Of a DNA stretch of 64,000 nt, positions 14,021-44,532 are shown piece by piece (within the stretch, counting starts at the first letter, position 1; each line of letters begins with the position of its first letter). Location of the stretch: NCBI RefSeq assembly GCF_007997135.1, contig NZ_VORU01000004.1, positions 124,001 to 188,000 of the forward strand, in the 5' to 3' direction. Made by a program: the position numbers and the translations under genes. Source of the DNA: Aequorivita lipolytica. GTDB lineage: Bacteria > Bacteroidota > Bacteroidia > Flavobacteriales > Flavobacteriaceae. The notes beneath the pieces were generated by a model. The model was not told the DNA's origin. It made no database searches and was given only the letters and a program-made list of their open reading frames with translations.

Positions 14021-14091
14021 CTATGTCTTCAATGTTGCAACTTGAAAAAGATAGAAATCGAATTTATTTTTTAACAAAAGTTTCTGAATTA

Positions 14092-14182: not shown

Positions 14183-14626
14183 ATGCTATCCAAACAACAA
14201 GCTCGGGCTTTTTTCCTAGTTGGAACGCTCGTTACATTCCTTATTTTTATTGGTCTTACTATCTATTCTTTTAGTGATGACCAGGATCAAACTAACTATG
14301 AAAACATTACCGCCCAAGTGGTTCGTGGTAAAGTTATCTGGGAAGAAAACAACTGTATGGGTTGCCACACCATTTTAGGTGAAGGCGCTTATTACGCACC
14401 AGAACTTACAAAAGTAGTTGAACGCCGCGGTGAAGGCTACATAAAAGCGGTACTTATGACGCCCGTTCCTTGGGCACCAAACGACCGAAAAATGGTTGCC
14501 TACGGTTTTTCTGAAGAAGAAGCTCTTGACGTCATCGAATTCTTTAAATGGATAGGCGAGATAGATCTAAATGGCTTCGAACGTGTTGTTTCTCCATTGT
14601 CAAAAGGTGAAAAATCACTCAACTAA
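14183..14626 (+). CDS. norC: Nitric oxide reductase cytochrome c subunit
   Basis: A 147-residue membrane-anchored cytochrome c: an N-terminal transmembrane helix (residues 10-30) and a periplasmic domain with C58-M-G-C-H62 in the family pattern NNCMGCHTILGEGAYYAPEL. The distal Met is in RKMVAYGFSEEEA. It passes electrons to NorB, which reduces 2 NO to N2O. It is first in the nor operon. Confidence 0.96.
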   Translation: MLSKQQARAFFLVGTLVTFLIFIGLTIYSFSDDQDQTNYENITAQVVRGKVIWEENNCMGCHTILGEGAYYAPELTKVVERRGEGYIKAVLMTPVPWAPNDRKMVAYGFSEEEALDVIEFFKWIGEIDLNGFERVVSPLSKGEKSLN

Positions 14627-14650
14627 ACTAACCCAAAACCATATTTATGA

Positions 14651-14700
14651 AATGCCCTTTCCTAAGTTTCAACCAACCGAAGATGTTTAATTAGGGCATT
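14651..14700 (+). other. Inverted repeat in the norC-norB gap
   Basis: AATGCCCT (14651-14658) pairs with AGGGCATT (14693-14700) around a 34-nt loop. It could be a processing or stability element between the two subunit genes. No T-run follows. Confidence 0.4.
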
Positions 14701-14733
14701 CCATTTCCTTCAATAATCAAATATTTTATAAAC

Positions 14734-16083
14734 ATGAAATACAAATCTCAAAAAGTAGCCTATTGGTTTTTCGCTCTCTCAATGCTACTGCTAGTTTTAC
14801 AACTTACTTACGGATTTATTATGGGTTTCGCGCGCATCGGTATGGATGGACTGCACGAATTTATACCTTTTAACACAGCACGTGCTGTTCATACCAATCT
14901 ACTTGTGGTTTGGTTGCTCTCCGGTTTTATGGGCGCAGCTTACTACATTATTCCCGAAGAAGCCCAACGCGAACTTGTAAGCGTTAAGCTGGCGTATGTT
15001 CAGCTTATTTCCCTTGCATTGGTAGGCGTTCTCGCTGTTGTGGGTTTTCACTTTAACATTTGGGAAGGACGTAAATTTTTAGAAATACCTCGCCAACTTG
15101 ACTACTTGGTGGTTTTAAATGTTTTACTGTTTTTAGCGCTCATACTTATAACGCTTTTCAAAGGAAAACGAAAAACCACAACAGCATTAGTGCTTTCTAT
15201 GGGACTCTTGTTTGCGGCGCTTTTATACCTTCCAGGAATGTTACCTTTTGACAGCCAAGTAACGGACAGTTTTTTCCGTTGGTGGGTTGTTCACCTTTGG
15301 GTTGAAGGCGTTTGGGAACTTATTATGGGTGGTATCCTCTCTTTCTTACTTATAAAACTAACAGGTGTAGATCGTGAGGTTATTGAAAAATGGCTATATG
15401 TAATTGTTGGTCTTACCTTCCTTTCCGGAGTGCTTGGTACGGGTCACCATTACTATTATATTGGTGTTAATAAAATCTGGCTTATTGTAGGTGGAATTTT
15501 CTCCGCTTTGGAGCCTTTAGCGTTCCTTGCAATGGCGCTATTCGCAGTAAATATGTATCGCAAAGGCGAAAAGAAACACCCAAACAAAATTGCGCTGTTT
15601 TGGACGCTTGGCGCAGCTATTGTATCTTTCGTGGGCGCTGGTCTTTTAGGTTTTGCACACACACTGCCACAAACTAACCTTTACACGCACGGAACATTAG
15701 TTACTGCAATGCACGGTCACTTGGCTTTTTGGGGTGCTTATGCTATGATTGTTTTGGCAATTATAAGCTATAGTCTTCCAAATATGACGGGACGTAAATT
15801 TTACGACGGCGTACGCGGTCGACTGGCTTTTTGGACCGCAAATATCGGGATGATCGGGATGACTATTGCTTTTGGAGTGGCAGGCGTAGCTCAGGTTTAT
15901 TTGGAACGAAAGTTTAAAATGGATTTTATGGAGGTACAAAAAGAAATCAGCATACACTTTGTGGTGCTTATTCTTTGTGCCAGCCTTTTCGCCTTCGGAA
16001 TTTTAACCTATATATACGATTTTTACAAACACGGTCTCCCAACAGATGAAGCCTTGGAAACCAATGATAACGAATTTTTATAA
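14734..16083 (+). CDS. norB: Nitric oxide reductase catalytic subunit (cNor)
   Basis: A 449-residue, 12-helix heme-copper-oxidase relative. All active-site ligands are present: low-spin heme b His53 and His329, heme b3 His327, and FeB ligands His187, His238 and His239. The catalytic glutamates are Glu191 and Glu195 in HLWVEGVWE, and a third glutamate is in SALEPLAF. It reduces 2 NO + 2 e- + 2 H+ to N2O + H2O in the inner membrane with NorC. It is a good internal standard for the divergent paralogue at 22338. Confidence 0.97.
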   Translation: MKYKSQKVAYWFFALSMLLLVLQLTYGFIMGFARIGMDGLHEFIPFNTARAVHTNLLVVWLLSGFMGAAYYIIPEEAQRELVSVKLAYVQLISLALVGVLAVVGFHFNIWEGRKFLEIPRQLDYLVVLNVLLFLALILITLFKGKRKTTTALVLSMGLLFAALLYLPGMLPFDSQVTDSFFRWWVVHLWVEGVWELIMGGILSFLLIKLTGVDREVIEKWLYVIVGLTFLSGVLGTGHHYYYIGVNKIWLIVGGIFSALEPLAFLAMALFAVNMYRKGEKKHPNKIALFWTLGAAIVSFVGAGLLGFAHTLPQTNLYTHGTLVTAMHGHLAFWGAYAMIVLAIISYSLPNMTGRKFYDGVRGRLAFWTANIGMIGMTIAFGVAGVAQVYLERKFKMDFMEVQKEISIHFVVLILCASLFAFGILTYIYDFYKHGLPTDEALETNDNEFL

Positions 16084-16091
16084 ATAATTAA

Positions 16092-16214
16092 AAAAGGCCT
16101 GAATTCGGTTACGCTCTTATACCTGAAAACCCGGGAAGTTTAATCTTTTGTTTTGTCTTTTTTATGGGCAAAATTTAGACAGCTTCCCAACAAGAACCGC
16201 TTTTCGGGCCTTTT
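16092..16214 (+). ncRNA. Candidate structured RNA (leader or terminator) between norB and norQ
   Basis: A long-range stem joins 16092-16103 with 16203-16214 (12 consecutive pairs, one G-U). It continues after a small internal loop with CGGTT (16106-16110) pairing AACCG (16195-16199). Inside it GGGAAG (16133-16138) pairs CTTCCC (16183-16188). The 3' arm ends in a T-rich tract (TTTTATTTCTT). It fills most of the 166-bp gap and ends 36 nt before norQ. It does not match any riboswitch consensus I know. It may be a large intrinsic terminator or attenuator, or a small RNA. Confidence 0.5.
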
Positions 16215-16249
16215 ATTTCTTCCGTATTTGGAAATTAAATTGAATAATT

Positions 16250-17074
16250 ATGGAAACAACAGACACAATAAATATAAAACCAAAAACGAAGATTTCTTCC
16301 GAAGAAATACCTTTCTATAAACCAATAGATCGCGAGGTTGAAGTTTTTCAGCACGCCTTTAAAAACAGACTACCAATGTTGCTGAAAGGTCCCACAGGAA
16401 CTGGAAAGACAAGGTTTGTAGAATTTATGGCGCATCAGTTTGAGCAATCAATTATAACTGTTTCCTGCCACGAAGAAACCTCTTCCACAGACCTTATTGG
16501 TCGCTACATCATTAAAGGCGCAGAAACCATTTGGGTGGATGGCCCGTTGACCAATGCCGTGAAGGAAGGCGCAATTCTTTATTTAGACGAAATAGCCGAA
16601 GCCCGCCCAGATGTGGTAGTTGCAATACATTCACTTACAGATCATAGAAAGGAACTTTACATAGATAAACTTGGGATTACTGTAAAAGCACACCCAGATT
16701 TTATGCTAGTTGCATCCTTCAATCCTGGTTACCAAAAAGGTTTTAAAGAACTGAAACCTTCTACCCGCCAACGTTTTGTAGCACTTTCATTCAAATATCC
16801 AGAACCTAAAATTGAAACGGAAATTGTACAAACTGAAACAGGTTTGGACAAAGACACTTCAAAAAAATTGGTGAACATTGCCAACAAAATCAGGAATCTT
16901 ACTGAATTGGGACTTACCGAAACCGTTTCTACCCGTTTGCTGGTTGATGCAGCAATGCTCATAAATAGTGGTCTTCCGAAGCGTCTTTCCGTTAAAGTGG
17001 CGATAGTAGAACCTTTGACCGACGATCTTGAAATTACCCAAGCACTGACTGATTTGTGCGATTTGATGATTTAA
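16250..17074 (+). CDS. norQ: NorQ/CbbQ-type MoxR AAA+ ATPase
   Basis: A 274-residue AAA+ protein with Walker A GPTGTGKT (about 47-54), Walker B ILYLDEIAEA (about 107-116) and an arginine region STRQRFVALSF. With NorD it forms a MoxR/VWA pair that activates nitric oxide reductase, probably by inserting the non-heme iron FeB. It lies 10 bp before norD. Confidence 0.93.
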   Translation: METTDTINIKPKTKISSEEIPFYKPIDREVEVFQHAFKNRLPMLLKGPTGTGKTRFVEFMAHQFEQSIITVSCHEETSSTDLIGRYIIKGAETIWVDGPLTNAVKEGAILYLDEIAEARPDVVVAIHSLTDHRKELYIDKLGITVKAHPDFMLVASFNPGYQKGFKELKPSTRQRFVALSFKYPEPKIETEIVQTETGLDKDTSKKLVNIANKIRNLTELGLTETVSTRLLVDAAMLINSGLPKRLSVKVAIVEPLTDDLEITQALTDLCDLMI

Positions 17075-17083
17075 GCCAAAGCT

Positions 17084-18853
17084 ATGTTCGAACCCGATGA
17101 ATTTATCTTTGCCAAGGTTGCAAAATTCCTAAAACACCGAAAAAAAAGTGCGAAGGAAGCAATTGCGCACACTGTAAAATTGAGCGAAATAAAACCTCGA
17201 CTCACATTGGTGGCTCGTGCTGTTACAGGCCAACCCATCGAAATATTTGAGGCGGAGCAGGAGGGCGGTTACAAAAACAACGCTTTCTTTTTACCCGAGC
17301 GTTTCTCAGGCTTTGATACTTCAGAAAAAAATCTTGGATTCTTCATATTTAGAACACTTTACCTTTCAATCCAGAAAAGTTTTCAACTTAATTATGAATT
17401 GGGAGAGGAGCATACTTTGGAAGAAGCGCGACACATTTCCGAAGAAAATTCTGAAAAAATATTGAAGGAAATCTTTAGTCAATTCCCCGGAACTGAAGTA
17501 ATTTATACAGAACTACGACTTCTTTTTTCAGAAAAAGCTACTGAAAAAAAACCTGCGGATTATTCTTTTATTTATGGGAAATGGATGGAAAATTCGCCCG
17601 AAACGCCGAAGAAGAAAGTACTTCAAAATATTTCAGAAAAAGTGAAATCTGCCATTGAAGAAGAGATAAACACCATTTTGAAAGCCAATGCGGTGGAAGA
17701 AATAAAATCTATTGCAGTCGATAAAAAAGCGCAGGAAGATTATATGCTTACCCACAATTTTGAAAAAGCCGAAACCGCCGAAGAGTGGGAGGGCGGCTGG
17801 CGCGATTTTGATGGCGATGATGAACTGGACGACCACGCAAATGCGCTTGAAGATTTGAATATGAAACAGACCGTGCGGGTGGACGACCCCACACATTCCA
17901 TCTATCAAGCAGAATTTATTGAAAACACAACAATTTCAGAAAGTGCCGAAATTGCGATTACCGGCCACCATATTTTTTACGATGAATGGGATTATTCCAA
18001 ACGAGTTTACAAACCAGATTTCTGTAAAGTTTTTCCGCAAACACAGACCGAAACCGATTCTGATTATTATAAGAATACGTTACGTGAACACGCTTCCACT
18101 TTAATGGGATTGCGGAAAATGCTCACTTCTGTTAACAATAAATATCAGCAGCAACGCAGACAATTGCAAGGCGAAGAGTTTGATCTCGATGCACTGACGG
18201 ATTTATATGTGGACGTCCACTCGGGGCACACGCCTTCGGAAAATATCTATCTTTCAAAACGAAAAAAAGAAAAAGACCTTTCCATTTTGATGCTTTTAGA
18301 TAGCAGTCTTTCCAGTGATGGTTATGCGGCGGACAATCGGGTAATAGATGTTGAAAAACAGGTTTCCATCATTTTTGGGGAAATTTTGGATGAATTCAAT
18401 GTTGATTTTTCCATTGCCGGTTTCTATTCAAAAACCCGCAACCACAGCACTTATTTAACTTTAAAAGATTTTGATGAACCGTGGCAAAAGGCGAAACACA
18501 AAGTTGGCGCGTTGCAGCCCTGCGGTTATACGCGAATTGGTACTGCCTTAAGACATTCGGGAGCTTTGCTGGATAAACGCAATACCAAAAATAAATGGGT
18601 AATCCTTATTTCTGACGGGAAACCCAACGATTACGATAAATACGAAGGCAAATATGGCATCAACGATGTAAAACAAGCCCTTCGCGAATTGAACCAGCGG
18701 AACATAAATTCATATGCATTAGCAATAGAAGCGCAGGCAAAATATTACTTGCCGCAAATGTTTGGGCAGAACCATTTCCAGATTTTGACCACGCCTGTGG
18801 AATTGCTGCAATCACTGGTAAAACTGTACGATAAAATAAAACACCAAAGCTGA
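17084..18853 (+). CDS. norD: NorD, VWA-domain activator of nitric oxide reductase
   Basis: A 589-residue protein with a long N-terminal helical and acidic part and a C-terminal von Willebrand factor A domain. The MIDAS site is LLDSSLSS (about residues 405-412, D-x-S-x-S), followed by CGYTRIGTALRHS and ILISDGKPNDYDKYEGKYGI. It partners NorQ in maturation of the Nor active site. Its stop is separated from the NorE gene by 2 bp. Confidence 0.94.
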   Translation: MFEPDEFIFAKVAKFLKHRKKSAKEAIAHTVKLSEIKPRLTLVARAVTGQPIEIFEAEQEGGYKNNAFFLPERFSGFDTSEKNLGFFIFRTLYLSIQKSFQLNYELGEEHTLEEARHISEENSEKILKEIFSQFPGTEVIYTELRLLFSEKATEKKPADYSFIYGKWMENSPETPKKKVLQNISEKVKSAIEEEINTILKANAVEEIKSIAVDKKAQEDYMLTHNFEKAETAEEWEGGWRDFDGDDELDDHANALEDLNMKQTVRVDDPTHSIYQAEFIENTTISESAEIAITGHHIFYDEWDYSKRVYKPDFCKVFPQTQTETDSDYYKNTLREHASTLMGLRKMLTSVNNKYQQQRRQLQGEEFDLDALTDLYVDVHSGHTPSENIYLSKRKKEKDLSILMLLDSSLSSDGYAADNRVIDVEKQVSIIFGEILDEFNVDFSIAGFYSKTRNHSTYLTLKDFDEPWQKAKHKVGALQPCGYTRIGTALRHSGALLDKRNTKNKWVILISDGKPNDYDKYEGKYGINDVKQALRELNQRNINSYALAIEAQAKYYLPQMFGQNHFQILTTPVELLQSLVKLYDKIKHQS

Positions 18854-18855
18854 AA

Positions 18856-19440
18856 ATGGACAATACAGTAAAAATAGATTACAAAAATATTTTCTATCCG
18901 CCAGGCGGGATTTTAATGTGGATCATTATTTATTTAGAATTGGTAACCTTTGGCATCGCCTTGGTTTTTATGGCTTTGAACGCTAGAGCCGAACCTGAGG
19001 TTTTTCACGAATCGCGTTTACTTCTCAATACGGGGTTTGGGGCTATAAATACGGTTTTCCTACTTAGTAGCGGTTGGTGTATGGCGCAATCTGTACATTT
19101 TTTGAAAGCTGGAAATTTCAGTAAAAGCAAATTGTTTTTAATGTTTACTGTTTTTGGAGGCTTCCTCTTTCTAGCGCTCAAAAGTTTTGAATATTACGAA
19201 AAAGTAGAAGCAGGACTTACCGTGGGCTACAATTCATTTTTTGGTTATTACTGGATGCTCACACTTTTCCACGTGATTCACGTGATTGTTGGGATTGTAA
19301 TTTTAGCTGTTTTAGGAAGAACCCTCAGCAAAAAACCCGAAACCTTAAAGGTAGAAGATTACGAATCGGGTGCTGCTTTTTGGCATATGTGCGATTTAAT
19401 TTGGCTACTGCTCTTCCCTATAATTTATTTACTTTTTTAA
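18856..19440 (+). CDS. norE: NorE, cytochrome c oxidase subunit III-like protein
   Basis: A 194-residue, five-helix protein of the subunit III family (PGGILMWIIIYLELVTFG, HVIHVIVGIV, WHMCDLIWLLLFPIIYLLF). In nor operons this small COX3 relative is called NorE and supports Nor activity without carrying redox centres. It is tightly packed between norD and norF. Confidence 0.88.
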   Translation: MDNTVKIDYKNIFYPPGGILMWIIIYLELVTFGIALVFMALNARAEPEVFHESRLLLNTGFGAINTVFLLSSGWCMAQSVHFLKAGNFSKSKLFLMFTVFGGFLFLALKSFEYYEKVEAGLTVGYNSFFGYYWMLTLFHVIHVIVGIVILAVLGRTLSKKPETLKVEDYESGAAFWHMCDLIWLLLFPIIYLLF

Positions 19441-21801: not shown

Positions 21802-21851
21802 GAAAGGATTTTTAGAAGAACGAAAATAAAAGATACTTTTATCTTATAAAC

Positions 21852-21894
21852 TGATATAAGTCATATATTGAGCAATAGTGAAGCGGTATTTTTA
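21852..21894 (+). promoter_or_regulatory. FNR-like box and -7 element of the divergent norCB-like pair
   Basis: TGATATAAGTCA (21852-21863), 27 nt, TTTA (21891-21894). The predicted transcript would begin after about 21898, which excludes a translation start at 21878 and supports the ATG at 21917. Confidence 0.78.
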
Positions 21895-21916: not shown

Positions 21917-22348
21917 ATGTCCAATAATTCAAGACCTTACCTTTTTGTAATTGCAATTTTGCTTGCCCTTTTTGGCTTTTATAACTATGTAGTTTACAAT
22001 ACCGATGGCTATGTGGCCGTCGAAAAACTATCCCCTGCGGCAGTGAATGGTCAACAATTGTTTCAAAGCAATCGTTGTTGGTCCTGTCATCAATTGTATG
22101 GTTCGGGTGGTTATCTTGGCCCAGATTTAACCAACATTTATTCTGCAGAAGGCAAAGGTCCAAATTATATAAAAGCGTTTTTGAATAGCGGCGTAAAAAG
22201 TATGCCACAGTTTAATTTTTCAGAAGAGGAAAAAGATGCTTTGGTGGAATATCTTAAACGGGTTGATGAAACAGGAATCTATCCCAACTACGACGCCGAA
22301 ATTGAAGCCACTGGTTGGGTGAAAATAAAGTACAAGAATGAAAAGTAA
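21917..22348 (+). CDS. NorC-like membrane-anchored cytochrome c (partner of divergent NorB)
   Basis: A 143-residue protein from the ATG at 21917; the upstream ATG at 21878 lies before the predicted transcription start. It has one N-terminal helix (8-27) and one heme motif C54-W-S-C-H58 in a NorC-like context (RCWSCHQLYGSGGYLGPDLTNIYS). The Met in VKSMPQFNFSEEE is the likely axial ligand. The gene overlaps its partner by 11 bp, so the two proteins probably form one complex. It is distinct from the canonical NorC at 14183. Confidence 0.88.
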   Translation: MSNNSRPYLFVIAILLALFGFYNYVVYNTDGYVAVEKLSPAAVNGQQLFQSNRCWSCHQLYGSGGYLGPDLTNIYSAEGKGPNYIKAFLNSGVKSMPQFNFSEEEKDALVEYLKRVDETGIYPNYDAEIEATGWVKIKYKNEK

Positions 22349-23663
22349 AGCTCCAATTTATTTTCTTCTTTTTGCGATGACTGCATTGTTTCTAGGAATG
22401 TTCTTCGGGATGACGGCCTCGTTTCAATATTTAATGCCCGAATTTTTAAAAGAAAACATTCCGTTTTCAAAACTGCGTCCGTTTCACGTTACCTCGGTTA
22501 TTTCGTGGATTGTGCTCTGCGCAACAGGAAGCATCTATTTTTTCCTCACGTATGTTGAAAAATTCAAACTCTTTTCGCCTTTGTTGGTAAAAATTCATTT
22601 TATCATTTTCCTTTTAACGGGTGTTGCCATCTACTTTTCGTTTGCGTTCGATTATACTGAAGGAAGGGAATACTTCGCTTTTGCGCCAGTTTTGATGGTT
22701 CCTATTTTAATTGGTTGGGTTTTATTTGGAATAAATTATTTTAAAACAATTTATAAAAATGTAAAAGGCTGGCCTGTATATTACTGGATGTGGGGCACGG
22801 GAATCGTTTTTATGTGTTATCATTTAATGGAAGCACACTTCTGGCTGTTCGATTTTTTTAGGTTGAATTTCATCAAAGATTTTTCTGTGCAGTGGAAATC
22901 AACTGGCTCGTTTACAGGTTCGTGGAATATGCTAGTTTATGGAATTTCCATTTATTTGATGTCCAAAATAAAAAAGGACAGCAACGTTGCAACAAATAAA
23001 GTTGCGTTTTTCTTCTACTTTTTGGGACTTACAAATTTAATGTTCGGGTGGGCGCATCACACCTATTTGTTGCCCACACAACCTTGGATTCGTTATGTGG
23101 CTTACGGAATTAGTATGACGGAGTGGATAGTTTTGACTTCAATCATTTACAACTGGAAACGCTCCGTTTTAAAAGTTGAAAAAGAAAACCACCCAATGGC
23201 ATATCGGTTTTTGCTAGCCACGGATTTGTGGATTTTTATAAATATCATTCTTGCATTATTGTTTTCTATTCCCGCCATCAATTTCTTTACACACGGCACG
23301 CATATTACGGTGGCACATTCTATGGGAACTACCATTGGTATTAACACAACCATTTTATTTTCTGCCTTATTTTTTATTGTTCATCAGCTTTATCCGAACT
23401 TTGAAACAGATAGAAAATGGGTGAAAAGAGGCTTTGTTTCATTCACTATTTCACTGTTTATATTTTTTGTTTCCCTCATAATTGCGGGAGCTAAAAGAAG
23501 CTATTGGATGTACGTTTCAAAAGATGGATCGTTTTCTGAAATGCAGGATGCACTCATTCCGTATTACATTTCGTTTTTCATTTTTGGGATTGCAATTTTC
23601 GTTTCACTTTCTATTGTTGCATTTCCTTTATTCAAAGCATTTCTTCAAAAAATTAAACCATAA
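22338..23663 (+). CDS. Divergent NorB-like heme-copper oxidase with altered active site
   Basis: A 441-residue, 12-helix protein that aligns without gaps to the NorB at 14734 from the catalytic helix to the His-His pair (both 44 residues apart). Conserved: His50 (low-spin heme), His240-His241, His327 (high-spin heme). Changed: FeB ligand His187 becomes Thr189, catalytic Glu191 becomes Thr193, Glu195 becomes Asn197, and low-spin heme ligand His329 becomes Met329. It is therefore unlikely to be an ordinary NO reductase. It may handle another N-oxide, act as an NO dismutase-like enzyme or a sensor, or have lost catalysis. No frameshift or decay is seen. Confidence 0.85.
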   Translation: MKSKAPIYFLLFAMTALFLGMFFGMTASFQYLMPEFLKENIPFSKLRPFHVTSVISWIVLCATGSIYFFLTYVEKFKLFSPLLVKIHFIIFLLTGVAIYFSFAFDYTEGREYFAFAPVLMVPILIGWVLFGINYFKTIYKNVKGWPVYYWMWGTGIVFMCYHLMEAHFWLFDFFRLNFIKDFSVQWKSTGSFTGSWNMLVYGISIYLMSKIKKDSNVATNKVAFFFYFLGLTNLMFGWAHHTYLLPTQPWIRYVAYGISMTEWIVLTSIIYNWKRSVLKVEKENHPMAYRFLLATDLWIFINIILALLFSIPAINFFTHGTHITVAHSMGTTIGINTTILFSALFFIVHQLYPNFETDRKWVKRGFVSFTISLFIFFVSLIIAGAKRSYWMYVSKDGSFSEMQDALIPYYISFFIFGIAIFVSLSIVAFPLFKAFLQKIKP

Positions 23664-23666
23664 AAG

Positions 23667-24593
23667 ATGGATTTACATCAAAAAATAACTAAACTGAAAA
23701 AGCAAAAAAACGCCGTAATTCTCGCACATTATTATCAAGTGCCCGAAATTCAGGAAGTGGCAGATTATGTGGGCGACAGTTTGGGTCTTTCACAAAAAGC
23801 GGCCGAAACCGATGCAGAAATAATTGTATTTGCAGGCGTTCATTTTATGGCCGAAACCGCCAAAATATTGAACCCCAACAAAAAGGTTTTGCTGCCAGAT
23901 TTGATGGCGGGTTGTTCCTTGGCAGATTCCTGTCCGCCGGATGCTTTTAAAAAATTAGTTGACGCTCATCCGGATCATACGGTGATTACCTACGTTAATT
24001 GTTCTGCGGAAGTAAAAGCTTTAAGCGATATTATTTGTACTTCTTCCAACGCCGAAAAAATCGTGAATTCCGTTCCGAAAGACGTGCCGATTATTTTTGC
24101 ACCCGATAAAAACCTGGGAAAATATATTCAGAAAAAAACTGGAAGAGAAATGCTGCTTTGGGACGGTGCGTGCATCGTGCACGAAGCATTTTCAATAGAT
24201 AAACTTTTGAAATTGTACAAAGAGCATCCCGGTTCTAAAATAATTGCGCATCCCGAAAGTGAAAGCCATATTTTGGAAACTGCCACCTATGTTGGTTCAA
24301 CGGCGGGAATGATTGATTATGTGAAAAAACATCCTTCGGAAAAATTTATAGTTGCGACCGAAGCAGGAATTCTTCATAAAATGCAACAGGAAGTACCACA
24401 AGCCGTATTGATTCCTGCCCCCGCGGAAGAAGATAATACTTGTGCTTGCAGTGAATGTGCGTTTATGAAAATGAACACTTTGCAAAAACTTTATGATTGT
24501 TTGTTGAACGAAACCCCACAGATAGAGGTTTCTGAAGAAATACGAAAAAAAGCAATTCTGCCTATTCAACGAATGCTGGAATTATCAAAATAA
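23667..24593 (+). CDS. nadA: Quinolinate synthase
   Basis: A 308-residue protein condensing iminoaspartate and dihydroxyacetone phosphate to quinolinate for NAD synthesis. Family motifs are visible: [34 protein letters not shown], the cysteine of the 4Fe-4S cluster in [21 protein letters not shown], and the C-terminal [16 protein letters not shown]. The gene overlaps nadB by 1 bp and starts 3 bp after the divergent norB-like gene, so it may share that transcript. Confidence 0.96.
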
Positions 24594-26767
24594 TGATGGA
24601 AACCAATTTTTTAATTATCGGTTCTGGAGCTGCGGGTTTAACACTCGCTGTGAAACTTGCTGAGAAATTTCCAAAGAAAAAAATAACAGTTGTAACCAAA
24701 GCCCATCAGTCGGAATCGAACACCAAATACGCCCAAGGAGGCGTGGCGGCGGTTTTCGATCTAAAAGAAGATTCCTTTCAAAAACACATTGAAGATACCC
24801 TGCTTGCTGGCGACGGTCTTTGCGACAAAACCGTCGTGGAAATGGTAATAAAAGACGGCCCAAAAAGACTGAGAGAATTGATGGAATGGGGCGCTCACTT
24901 TGACACCGATGTTGATGGTGAACTCAATTTGGGCAGGGAAGGGGGCCATTCCGAATTTAGGGTAATCCATCATAAAGATACCACAGGCAACGAAATTGAG
25001 CGTGCTCTTTTGGCCCGTGTAAACCATTTAAAAAATATCACATTGCTCCCGCATCATTTTGCGATAGATTTAATTACCGAGCATCATTTGCCCACTAGCA
25101 AAAGTGAAGAAATCTCGTGTTACGGGGCGTATGTTTTGGACCAGATTTCGGGAAGTATTTTTACCATTAAAGCAGATTGCACCACGCTCGCTTCGGGCGG
25201 AATGGGGCAAGTTTACGGCCACACCACCAATCCCGCAGTTGCCACAGGCGACGGTATTGCAATGGCGTATCGTGCAAAAGCTCGAATTGAAAATATGGAG
25301 TTTATCCAGTTTCATCCCACGGCATTTTACGATGGAAACAATGGCGCTTCCTTTTTAATTTCTGAGGCTGTACGTGGGTTTGGGGCTTTTCTTCGGAACA
25401 AAAATGGCCAGCGATTTATGTTTCAATACGATGAGCGAGGTGAATTGGCTTCACGAGATATTGTTTCACGCGCCATAGATTCCGAAATGAAAAAATCTGG
25501 CGATGACTGCGTTTTTTTGGATTGCACACATTTAGATATTGATGAATTCAAACAACATTTTCCAAACATATATGAAACCTGTTTACAGAAAAATATTAAC
25601 GTTGCGAAAGATTGGATTCCAGTAGTTCCGGCAGCGCATTATTTGTGCGGTGGCGTGGTTGTAGATATTAATGGCAAAACTTCATTGAAAAATCTTTTTG
25701 CCTGCGGCGAATGTTCGCATACAGGTTTGCACGGCGCGAATCGCTTGGCTTCAAATTCATTGTTAGAGGCTTTAGTTTATGCAGATCGAATTTTTAAATA
25801 TATAAGTAAGAACCTACCTTTACGAACGACTACCACTATTCCCGAGTGGGATGACAACGGCACGGTTATGTTTCAGGGTTCGGAGATTCTTCAGCAGAAA
25901 ACAATGGAACTGCAGCATTTAATGCGAAGATTTGCAGGCGTTGTTCGCAATAATAATGATTTAAAGAAAGCTTCCCTTCAACTTGAAAAATTATATTTCG
26001 AAATGGAAGCATTATATCAAAAACATAAATTGAATACGGCGCTTTCCCAGCTTCGGAATATGGTAAATGTGGCGCATTTGATAATTCAACAATCCTTAAA
26101 ACGAAAAGAAAATCGTGGCGGATTTTATAACGAAGTTTACAATAAAGAAAATTTTAAAAAGAATAAAATGAAAAATTTAATAGAGAACTCGGTCAAAAAA
26201 GCAATGGACTATACCCAGTACAACTTGTTTTTCAAACAATTGGCGGAAGAGGGCAGAACCACCAGTGAGCAAACGCAAGAAAAGATTGATTATACAAAAT
26301 TGAACTTCAGCCGCACGAAACGATTGGACAAAACTGCTGAAATTTCAGAGGAAAGCATTGAAGTTTTTAAAAATATTTCTGAAAAACAAACGTGGCTTGT
26401 AATCAGCGAACCTTGGTGTGGCGATGCTGCACAAACACTTCCGTTTTTGAATAAGATTGCCCAGTTTTCAGAAAACATCGATTTAAAAATTGTTCTTCGC
26501 GATGACAACACTGAGTTGATGAATCAGTTTTTAACCAATGGTTCGCAATCCATTCCTGTAGTAATTATGCTTGATGAAAATTTAAATGTGCTTCAAACTT
26601 TCGGTCCGCGTTCCAAAGCTGCCACAAAGTTGGTGACGGATTACAAAACCCAACACGGAAAAATTAACGATGCCTTTAAAGAACTTTTGCAGGTTTGGTA
26701 TAATGAGGATAAAGGTGTTTCTATTGTGAATGATATATTGGAGACGGTAGAAATTACATTGAATTAA
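24593..26767 (+). CDS. nadB: L-aspartate oxidase fused in frame to a thioredoxin-like domain
   Basis: Residues 1 to about 520 are NadB: FAD motif IIGSGAAGLTLA (7-18), SNTKYAQGGVAAVF, EFRVIHHKDTTGNEI, FIQFHPTAFY and HGANRLASNSLLE. It oxidises aspartate to iminoaspartate for NadA. Normal NadB ends at about 520-540 residues. Here the frame runs on from ENRGGFYNEVYNKEN into MKNLIENSVKKAMDY (Met526), which looks like the start of a separate thioredoxin-family protein of about 200 residues with a single active-site Cys609 (EPWCGDAAQ). Either a true gene fusion or loss of the nadB stop codon. The nadB part carries no sign of decay. Confidence 0.88.
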   Translation: MMETNFLIIGSGAAGLTLAVKLAEKFPKKKITVVTKAHQSESNTKYAQGGVAAVFDLKEDSFQKHIEDTLLAGDGLCDKTVVEMVIKDGPKRLRELMEWGAHFDTDVDGELNLGREGGHSEFRVIHHKDTTGNEIERALLARVNHLKNITLLPHHFAIDLITEHHLPTSKSEEISCYGAYVLDQISGSIFTIKADCTTLASGGMGQVYGHTTNPAVATGDGIAMAYRAKARIENMEFIQFHPTAFYDGNNGASFLISEAVRGFGAFLRNKNGQRFMFQYDERGELASRDIVSRAIDSEMKKSGDDCVFLDCTHLDIDEFKQHFPNIYETCLQKNINVAKDWIPVVPAAHYLCGGVVVDINGKTSLKNLFACGECSHTGLHGANRLASNSLLEALVYADRIFKYISKNLPLRTTTTIPEWDDNGTVMFQGSEILQQKTMELQHLMRRFAGVVRNNNDLKKASLQLEKLYFEMEALYQKHKLNTALSQLRNMVNVAHLIIQQSLKRKENRGGFYNEVYNKENFKKNKMKNLIENSVKKAMDYTQYNLFFKQLAEEGRTTSEQTQEKIDYTKLNFSRTKRLDKTAEISEESIEVFKNISEKQTWLVISEPWCGDAAQTLPFLNKIAQFSENIDLKIVLRDDNTELMNQFLTNGSQSIPVVIMLDENLNVLQTFGPRSKAATKLVTDYKTQHGKINDAFKELLQVWYNEDKGVSIVNDILETVEITLN

Positions 26768-43065: not shown

Positions 43066-44532
43066 TTATTGGTTTCTAACGGCTTTCACCATTTCGGGAG
43101 TAACTTCTTTTTTAGAATTGCCCCAACTGTTATAAACGTAAGTAAGTACGTTTGAAACTTCCTCATCACTAAGTGCCTGTGCGGTCATAACACTGTTGTA
43201 ATTTTTACCGTTTACGGTTATTTCGCCTGTTTTTCCGTGCAACACTATGTCTATGGCTCGGTTAACGTCAGCATTTAAGTAGTCTGCTTTTGCTAGTGGG
43301 GGAAAAGCTCCTTCAATACCCTGCCCATTTGCTTGGTGACAGGCCAAACAAGTAGCCATATATTTGTCTTTTCCGAATTGCATTTTTTCTTCAAAACTTA
43401 AGGCTTTTATCTCTTCTTTTACCGTTTTATTTCCCGCGGTAGGCATTGACTGTATTACTCCTCCTTCTGGAAGATAAATACCATCACGAATTTCTCCAGA
43501 ATAGATTGTTTTATTTTCTTCACCTTCAACTTTTAACATAGCGAGAGCCCCTTTATTAAATGCTCTAAATATGGAGTGATCTACTAAGATAAAAGTTCCC
43601 GGAACATCCACACGGAATTCAACGATAGCTGCACCTCCAGCAGGAATTAGTGTAGTCTGTACGTTATCGTTTATTAGACTTCCACCTTCAACATGAACTT
43701 TGTCAAAGATTTCGCCAATTACGTGAAAGGAGGAAACTAAATTAGGTCCGCCATTTCCGACAAAAAGACGTACTGTTTCGCCCACTTTTGCTGTAAGTGC
43801 ATTGTCTCCTGTCATGGCACCTACGTGTCCATTAAAAACTACATAGTCTGCTTTTTCATCAATCGCTTTCTGCATATCAAATGCCTGAAGGCCTCGGTCT
43901 CCGTAGGATCCTTCAGTATAAAAATCACCTTGCATAATGTAGTATTCTTTGTCAACCGGTGCTAAACCACCTTCCGGTTCAACTAAAATTAGACCGTACA
44001 TTCCGTTGGCAATGTGCATTCCTACTGGCGCGGTCGCACAATGGTAAACATACAATCCAGGGTTAAGCACTTTAAAAGAAAAAACTTTTTCGTGACCAGG
44101 TGCAACAAAGGAAGATTCTGCTCCACCACCTGGGCCATTCACGGCGTGAAGGTCAATGTTGTGAGGTAATTTATTATCTGGGTGGTTTTTTAGGTGAAAT
44201 TCAACCTCATCGCCCACGCGTGTTCTTATAAAACTTCCGGGAACTGTTCCGCCGAAGGTCCAGTAAACGTACTTTACGCCGCTGGTCATTTCGCCTTCGC
44301 GTTCTTGAATTTCAAGATCTACGATTAGTTTTTTTGCCATACGTTTACCAATAGGAGTTGGCACGAATGGCGGGGAAGTAAGCTCCGCAGTCATCTCTTG
44401 ATTTACGGGAATATCCACAGTGTCATTATATTTTTTATCAGACTGATCATTTACACAACTTGAAAGAAATGCAATGGTGCAAAGACCGACTAGCATTTTT
44501 GTAACGAAGATTTTTTTAAGATTTAGTTTCAT
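43066..44532 (-). CDS. nirK: Copper nitrite reductase with C-terminal cytochrome c domain
   Basis: A 488-residue lipoprotein (C26 in AFLSSC). Two cupredoxin domains carry type 1 and type 2 copper ligands: [37 protein letters not shown] and [15 protein letters not shown] class I cytochrome c domain is fused at the end (C395-LA-C-H399, [14 protein letters not shown], ending [13 protein letters not shown]). It reduces nitrite to NO in the periplasm; the heme domain can receive electrons directly. It is second in the operon. Confidence 0.97.

Follow-up and report, generated by a model that had tools for sequence, protein, structure and literature searches.

What marks out respiratory oxidases and NO reductases is their binuclear heme/metal site. 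Extracts of one report state that cNOR needs NorQD for FeB insertion, whereas qNOR takes up FeB without NorQD (PMC9976466). According to passages of another, bNOR, eNOR, sNOR, gNOR and nNOR are tied to the B-family oxidases, while cNOR and qNOR lie on that side of the superfamily where the genes described here also belong (PMC11388526), and the B-family-related enzymes are characterized, in part of a further account, by a helix-VI metal His together with a class-specific residue, Q, N or D (PMC8756737). Published NO dismutases (NODs), as outlined in excerpts of one source, have one His changed to Asn and a nearby Glu changed to Gln in a qNOR-type chain, and are apparently unable to take external electrons (PMC3413370). 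A portion of one survey indicates that chains without the conserved ligand residues are excluded (PMC12569097), and such exclusion could drop the family described below from surveys.

In the window, by which the whole 64-kb stretch of analysed DNA is meant, NorC/NorB-type genes occur twice, as a canonical pair at 14183-16083 and as a variant pair at 21917-23663. The former opens the comparison cluster (14183-19440, forward strand), in which norC and norB precede genes that we take to be norQ, norD and norE, and its NorB has the canonical ligand set. A plasmid locus resembling this cluster carries the annotations cytochrome c, cbb3-type subunit I, NorQ family and VWA protein, and the window also encodes, at 43066-44532, a NirK-like protein carrying a cytochrome c domain at its C terminus. 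The variant pair, which the first-pass annotation had described as a second NorC/NorB-like pair with a clean frame and an intact cytochrome partner, is indeed intact. It consists of a NorC-like subunit of 143 aa (ATG at 21917, stop at 22348, forward strand; PF13442, PF00034) and, overlapping it by 11 nt, an uninterrupted ORF for a NorB-like subunit of 441 aa with a variant active site (22338-23663, forward strand; PF00115). The latter scores 107.9 bits against PF00115, above the curated cut-off of 34.8, which together with a fold match at TM 0.89 places it in the heme-copper superfamily.

A peptide-pattern scan of genome contigs revealed at least 79 distinct loci of the variant, belonging by title to Bacteroidota, Pseudomonadota and, in one case, Chlorobiota (L030), which rules out a strain-specific oddity. 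These loci derive from 122 stretches, 88 of which were confirmed and the best 80 of the 88 taken. In addition, 8 of 395 Bacteroidota genomes, the window's own included, match the variant profile at E 1e-40 or better, and this search contributed 7 further loci. No relative appeared in viral contigs scanned with two peptide patterns, and tblastn against plasmids gave weak matches only (227 records, all below 60% identity, with the 40 matches listed at about 25% or less). An alignment of 81 rows was built from the window, the 79 loci and L099, leaving out L001, which repeats the window, and 17 loci of the same genus that are near-duplicates; one row, L022 from an Aequorivita genome (G010), is a frameshifted copy. 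Since six peptides of the window protein served as scan patterns, His240-His241 (MFGWAHHT) and Glu165 (FMCYHLME) were partly selected for, while His50, Asn197, Glu262, His327 and Met329 lie in none of the six. The altered state is fixed across the 81 rows, in a large clade spanning two phyla, and the existence of a conserved variant family is near certain.

Pairwise MAFFT alignment of the two NorB-type chains of the window, which share 23% identity (BLASTP, E 2e-13), bears out the four proposed substitutions, namely His187 to Thr189, Glu191 to Thr193, Glu195 to Asn197 and His329 to Met329, as well as the equal spacing of the catalytic helix, with 44 residues both from Trp194 to His238 and from Trp196 to His240. 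The other heme and metal histidines (His50, His240/241 and His327) are kept, also as proposed. The low-spin heme ligand His50 (22485-22487; this and all codons below on the forward strand), the two FeB ligands His240-His241 (23055-23060) and Asn197 at the second-Glu position (22926-22928) are found in 81 of 81 rows, and His327, the proximal ligand of the high-spin heme (23316-23318), and Met329, in place of the second low-spin heme His (23322-23324), in 80, the exception being the frameshifted L022. The bis-His low-spin heme b of cNOR is thus absent by sequence, and Met329 would ligate this heme instead. The three-His FeB and Glu set of cNOR is absent too: position 189, that of the FeB His (22902-22904), is never His in the 81 rows (Y64, T15, V2), and position 193, that of the FeB Glu (22914-22916), is never Glu (V41, T37, F2, I1). 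The seven profile-found loci keep Asn197, His-His, Glu262, His327 and Met329 wherever these can be read, and the six of the seven that cover the region all have Asn197 and His240-His241 and show Y, N, N, Y, Y and A at position 189. This helix-VI ligand position is therefore not conserved in the variant family, unlike Met329 and Asn197, and Thr189/Thr193, as seen in the window, is a local version within the family; the substitution at 189 holds as the loss of a His, but Thr is a minority state where most members (64/81) have Tyr. The idea that Tyr189 replaces the FeB His was dropped on account of the Asn and Ala found in the profile-found loci.

The claim that the catalytic glutamates are lost needs a similar qualification, since it is correct for Glu191 and Glu195 but not for the third Glu, which is kept as Glu262 (23121-23123) in all 81 rows. 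It lies 21 residues past the His-His pair, as does Glu260 in the cNOR of the window, and both correspond to Glu280 of P. aeruginosa NorB. A conserved loss of the periplasmic proton-entry Glu was also considered and is unsupported, as position 114 is A in 39 rows and E in 27.

The NorC-like gene lies directly 5' of the NorB-like gene in 78 of the 79 loci, so that nearly all have a heme c partner of the NorC type as cNOR does; the exception (L076) starts at a contig edge. The NorC-like protein has an N-terminal hydrophobic stretch and a heme c motif, CWSCH (C54, C57, H58), and these three residues and M96 are present in 79 of 79 rows. Met96 is probably the axial ligand of this heme, and the invariance of CxxCH and Met96 implies that electrons can enter via cytochrome c. 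We regard it as only slightly short of an even bet that the pair is a membrane-bound cytochrome complex whose family, as yet unclassified, lies within the cNOR/qNOR/cbb3 branch, and that it converts NO without a standard FeB. Electrons would pass from a periplasmic cytochrome c to heme c, then to a high-potential His/Met heme b and on to the high-spin heme, which would bind NO and convert it, most likely reductively, by scavenging or by reduction of NO to N2O. A second metal would be missing or would be held differently, by His240/241 with Glu262, Asn197 or the helix-V Glu165. The more specific proposal of a third lineage beside cNOR and qNOR, in which NO reacts at a site that has heme alone or is unusually ligated and that receives its electrons from a His/Met low-spin heme, is put forward tentatively, its probability being clearly below even.

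The same partner gene bears on NO dismutation (2 NO to N2 + O2), to which the first-pass annotation alluded as an example of another NO-converting reaction. This would account for an altered site in the same branch and in a nitrogen-oxide context, yet the variant keeps both the His-His pair and Glu262, has a heme c partner in 78/79 loci, and is not a single chain of qNOR type in which His has become Asn and Glu has become Gln. A NOD-like qNOR, L113, was found in a genome (G068) that also holds the variant locus L030; it has His-Asn for His-His and Gln at the Glu280 position, that is, changes at both places that the variant keeps. Dismutation is accordingly disfavoured and appears highly improbable.

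The NorB-like subunit has, by sequence, 12 long helices, with Glu165 at the end of helix V. Its AlphaFold2 model (pLDDT 86.7, pTM 0.90) was built without hemes and compared at the level of the fold rather than of residue-level ligand geometry. The closest PDB folds are cNOR (4xyd_A, TM 0.89; 3o0r_B, 0.86), cbb3 oxidase (3mk7_A, 0.86) and qNOR (3ayf, 0.78), and the family profile ranks cNOR, cbb3 and qNOR in the same order. The second place of cbb3 oxidases, behind cNOR, among the PDB relatives, along with the FNR-like box described below and the invariant Tyr201 and Tyr243 as possible redox residues in the aligned variant rows, could suggest a low-oxygen O2 reductase or an enzyme that reduces something else, for instance nitrite or hydroxylamine. 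The variant, however, has no three-His CuB site of the C-type (cbb3) oxygen reductases, Tyr occupies position 189 in only 64/81 rows, and a NOR-type Glu262 is present that is absent from the four CcoN chains compared, which makes such an activity very unlikely.

A further explanation is that the protein is an essentially cNOR-like, FeB-type NO reductase that takes its metal ligands from elsewhere, for example from the helix-V Glu165 or Asn197. Both residues are invariant in 81/81 rows and in those six of the seven profile-found loci where they are covered, NorQD is dispensable in the case of qNOR, and the variant is the only NOR-like chain in two genomes (G091, G093). Nevertheless, the helix-VI stretch offers no His near position 189, which itself varies among Y, T, V, N and A, and the constancy of Glu165 was partly favoured by the search pattern FMCYHLME; on balance we consider this explanation unlikely.

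Phylogenetic analysis of the heme-copper chains, the check proposed at the outset, separates the variant from the known NO reductases. In a tree of 57 rows the variant forms one clade (SH-aLRT 96) and cNOR joins qNOR (99), and in a tree of 36 rows the variant clade and the cNOR+qNOR branch, which is set against variant and cbb3, each receive 100/99; in both, long branches call for caution and the root among variant, cbb3 and NORs is not placed. The smaller tree omits five rows (three eNOR-like, the NOD-like and the Thermus cNOR) and thins the variants from 31 to 15, and on it the AU test rejects grouping of the variant with cNOR or with qNOR (p 0.0025 each), which leaves the variant outside the cNOR clade. 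The wording that the catalytic subunit has lost its residues, which implies a derived NorB copy, is thereby contradicted. The NorB-like gene gives dN/dS of 0.037-0.055 against seven Aequorivita copies (rough values, as several dS exceed 1), the NorC-like gene 0.022-0.094 in the four comparisons, out of five, that yield a value, and the canonical norB 0.026-0.042 against three copies (both likewise rough, with many dS above 1). Substitutions fixed in a large clade, combined with purifying selection, support the earlier proposal of selection for a different function.

Separation in the tree and rejection by the AU test also mean that the variant is no decayed copy of the local norB. Decay of a duplicate could be argued from the one frameshifted copy (L022/G010); against it stand a clade of two phyla apart from cNOR+qNOR, dN/dS of about 0.04 and the occurrence of the variant without canonical norB in half of its carriers within the genus. 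Among 28 genomes of that genus, 18 carry the variant (one frameshifted), 10 carry canonical norB and 9 carry both, so that 9 of the 18 carriers, including the frameshifted one, are without canonical norB. The tree and selection results refute a decaying duplicate, to which practically no probability remains attached.

An FNR-like box was reported ahead of the pair, and it is found as CTGATATAAGTCAT at 21851-21864 on the forward strand, upstream of the NorC-like gene. Its position, at -64/-65, is kept in the 15 nearest loci, 14 of which are titled Aequorivita. An upstream box occurs in 33 of the 76 loci examined, so that many relatives either are without a box or are transcribed from a gene further upstream. 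Searched with two mismatches allowed, the E. coli-like pattern TTGAYNNNNRTCAA shows no enrichment in the window, with 153 sites against 153.7 expected; the core pattern HTGAYNNNNRTCAD, framed after inspection of the loose-pattern list, is enriched (16 versus 2.3 expected). The 16 window sites of the TGAYNNNNRTCA box, for example at 14091, 21851, 30000 and 32192, amount to a roughly sevenfold enrichment over the 2.3 expected, and about ten of them, read by eye, lie 50-92 nt ahead of an ORF start. These boxes may outline an anaerobic/NO regulon.

In seven loci (L019, L020, L021, L025, L027, L029, L037) the pair follows a COX4-like gene, a putative norF, at 0-3 nt, and in three (L023, L026, L032) it follows a putative norD; L026 also has a canonical-type NorB with Leu at the second helix-VI Glu (E195 in the window). 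The other neighbours, every one of them from a Bacteroidota locus, comprise narGHJ, nosDFY, moaA, anaerobic ribonucleotide reductase, Crp/FNR, Rrf2, hemerythrin and ScdA-type genes. The names norQ, norD, norE, norF, narGHJ, nosDFY and moaA are our presumed assignments, made from sequence, size or position and not from database matches. No denitrification gene was recognised beside the pair in the Pseudomonadota loci, where a divergent Lrp/AsnC-type gene occurs in nine and a DUF5062 gene in four; ORF calls in GC-rich neighbourhoods are wrong in places (antisense ORFs). NadA- and NadB-like genes are present in 38 of 80 loci, the window included. The window's NadB-like ORF (24593-26767, 724 aa) is a fusion with a C-terminal thioredoxin domain (PF14595), and many relatives have two genes in its place, a NadB-like one of about 525 aa and, behind it, one of about 200 aa. 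The FNR-like box and the neighbours suggest that the pair and the nor/nos genes are expressed jointly when oxygen is low, at any rate in some of the Bacteroidota.

The gene content of 50 carrier genomes, 49 from the loci and the window's own, with MAGs included and completeness mostly not established, was also compared. NosZ is present in 27, NirK over cut-off in 11 and NirS at E <1e-100 in 14 (21 over the Pfam cut-off), and for 25 there is no NirK over cut-off and no strong NirS match. The 13 Pseudomonadota carriers, assigned by locus title, have no NosZ and 11 have nir (NirK or strong NirS), and among the other 37 there are 27 with NosZ and 14 with nir. Within the genus, NosZ accompanies 18/18 carriers versus 7/10 non-carriers (Fisher p 0.037, with kinship ignored). 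Canonical norB occurs in 18 of the 50 carriers and is absent from 32. NorD is found in the same 18 and as one partial match of 25% identity, and is absent from 31 of the 32 norB-less carriers; this would agree with a variant without standard FeB but is suggestive only, since qNOR acquires FeB without NorQD. In G091 (NirK, NosZ) and G093 (NirK), both MAGs whose completeness is not established, the variant is the sole NOR-like chain among three and two COX1-family matches, the others being ordinary oxidases. Chains that are eNOR-like, with Gln four residues past the helix-VI His, occur in four gammaproteobacterial carriers (G094, G096, G099, G101), which weakens the idea that the variant fills the place of a missing NO reductase in gammaproteobacteria, and five other carriers (G067, G068, G071, G073, G077) have a qNOR-length or NOD-like chain. 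Three further COX1-family chains (L146, L147, L153) have no His-His pair; two of them, L146 and L147, come from NirS-bearing Rhodospirillales MAGs (G104, G105), in which an A-type oxidase subunit I is found within about 2 kb.

Neighbours and co-occurring genes point to nitrogen-oxide metabolism, but several observations count against NO conversion: half of the carriers are without NirK over cut-off or a strong NirS match, no denitrification neighbour was recognised in the Pseudomonadota loci, and carriers that also have canonical norB, a qNOR or an eNOR-like chain do not need the variant in order to reduce NO. The pair could instead be a non-catalytic sensor of NO or O2, or an electron-transfer module for NosZ or another reductase, in which the high-spin heme only binds a ligand or passes electrons on. 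Loss of the FeB triad, the FNR-like box and the company of NosZ in carriers without nir or canonical norB would suit such a role, to which we give a minor though appreciable share of probability; invariant Glu262, His240/241 and heme c entry are seemingly more than a sensor needs, and no regulator or signalling gene recurs beside the pair in both phyla among the ORF clusters around the loci. Catalytic NO handling by the variant is rated at about even probability.

The family is old and apparently undescribed and is conserved across two phyla, and keyword searches of the open-licence PMC literature gave no description of it among the matches listed. It may represent a step of NO handling that has been overlooked in denitrifying and N2O-reducing bacteria, with a different chemistry for nitrogen oxides, and N2O potential could be misstated where its members are annotated as plain norB or cbb3 oxidase. 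If the proposal of a third lineage is right, an enzyme of the heme-copper fold does its work with no binuclear centre, the feature by which the superfamily is defined, and a family that keeps the heme machinery and the cytochrome partner, and not the FeB ligands, would test the purpose of the second metal.

To conclude with the known systems, eNOR, sNOR, gNOR, nNOR and bNOR, compared here via published descriptions, are like the variant non-canonical NO reductases of the superfamily, but their helix-VI metal His is absent from the 81 variant rows; the eNOR-like chains L114-L116 and L144 do have it, with Gln four residues on, a spacing that is our own reading of these chains. The qNORs and NO dismutases share the superfamily branch, whereas the variant has 441 aa without a fused N-terminal domain, has a separate heme c subunit and is without the NOD changes seen in L113 (His-His to His-Asn, Glu280 to Gln). 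CcoN of cbb3 oxidases shares the fold (TM 0.86) and the VQW sequence that starts helix VI, whereas the variant is without the CuB His and has the NOR-type Glu262 and THGT motif and a single-heme NorC-like partner. From cNOR (NorCB) the variant differs in being without the FeB His and FeB Glu, in having Asn for the second Glu and Met for the low-spin His, in its place outside the cNOR group in the tree and in its occurrence without NorD; common to both are the two-subunit plan, the NorC-type heme c partner, the size, the fold (TM 0.89), the THGT motif and, among the ligands, His50, His240, His241, His327 and the Glu280 equivalent.
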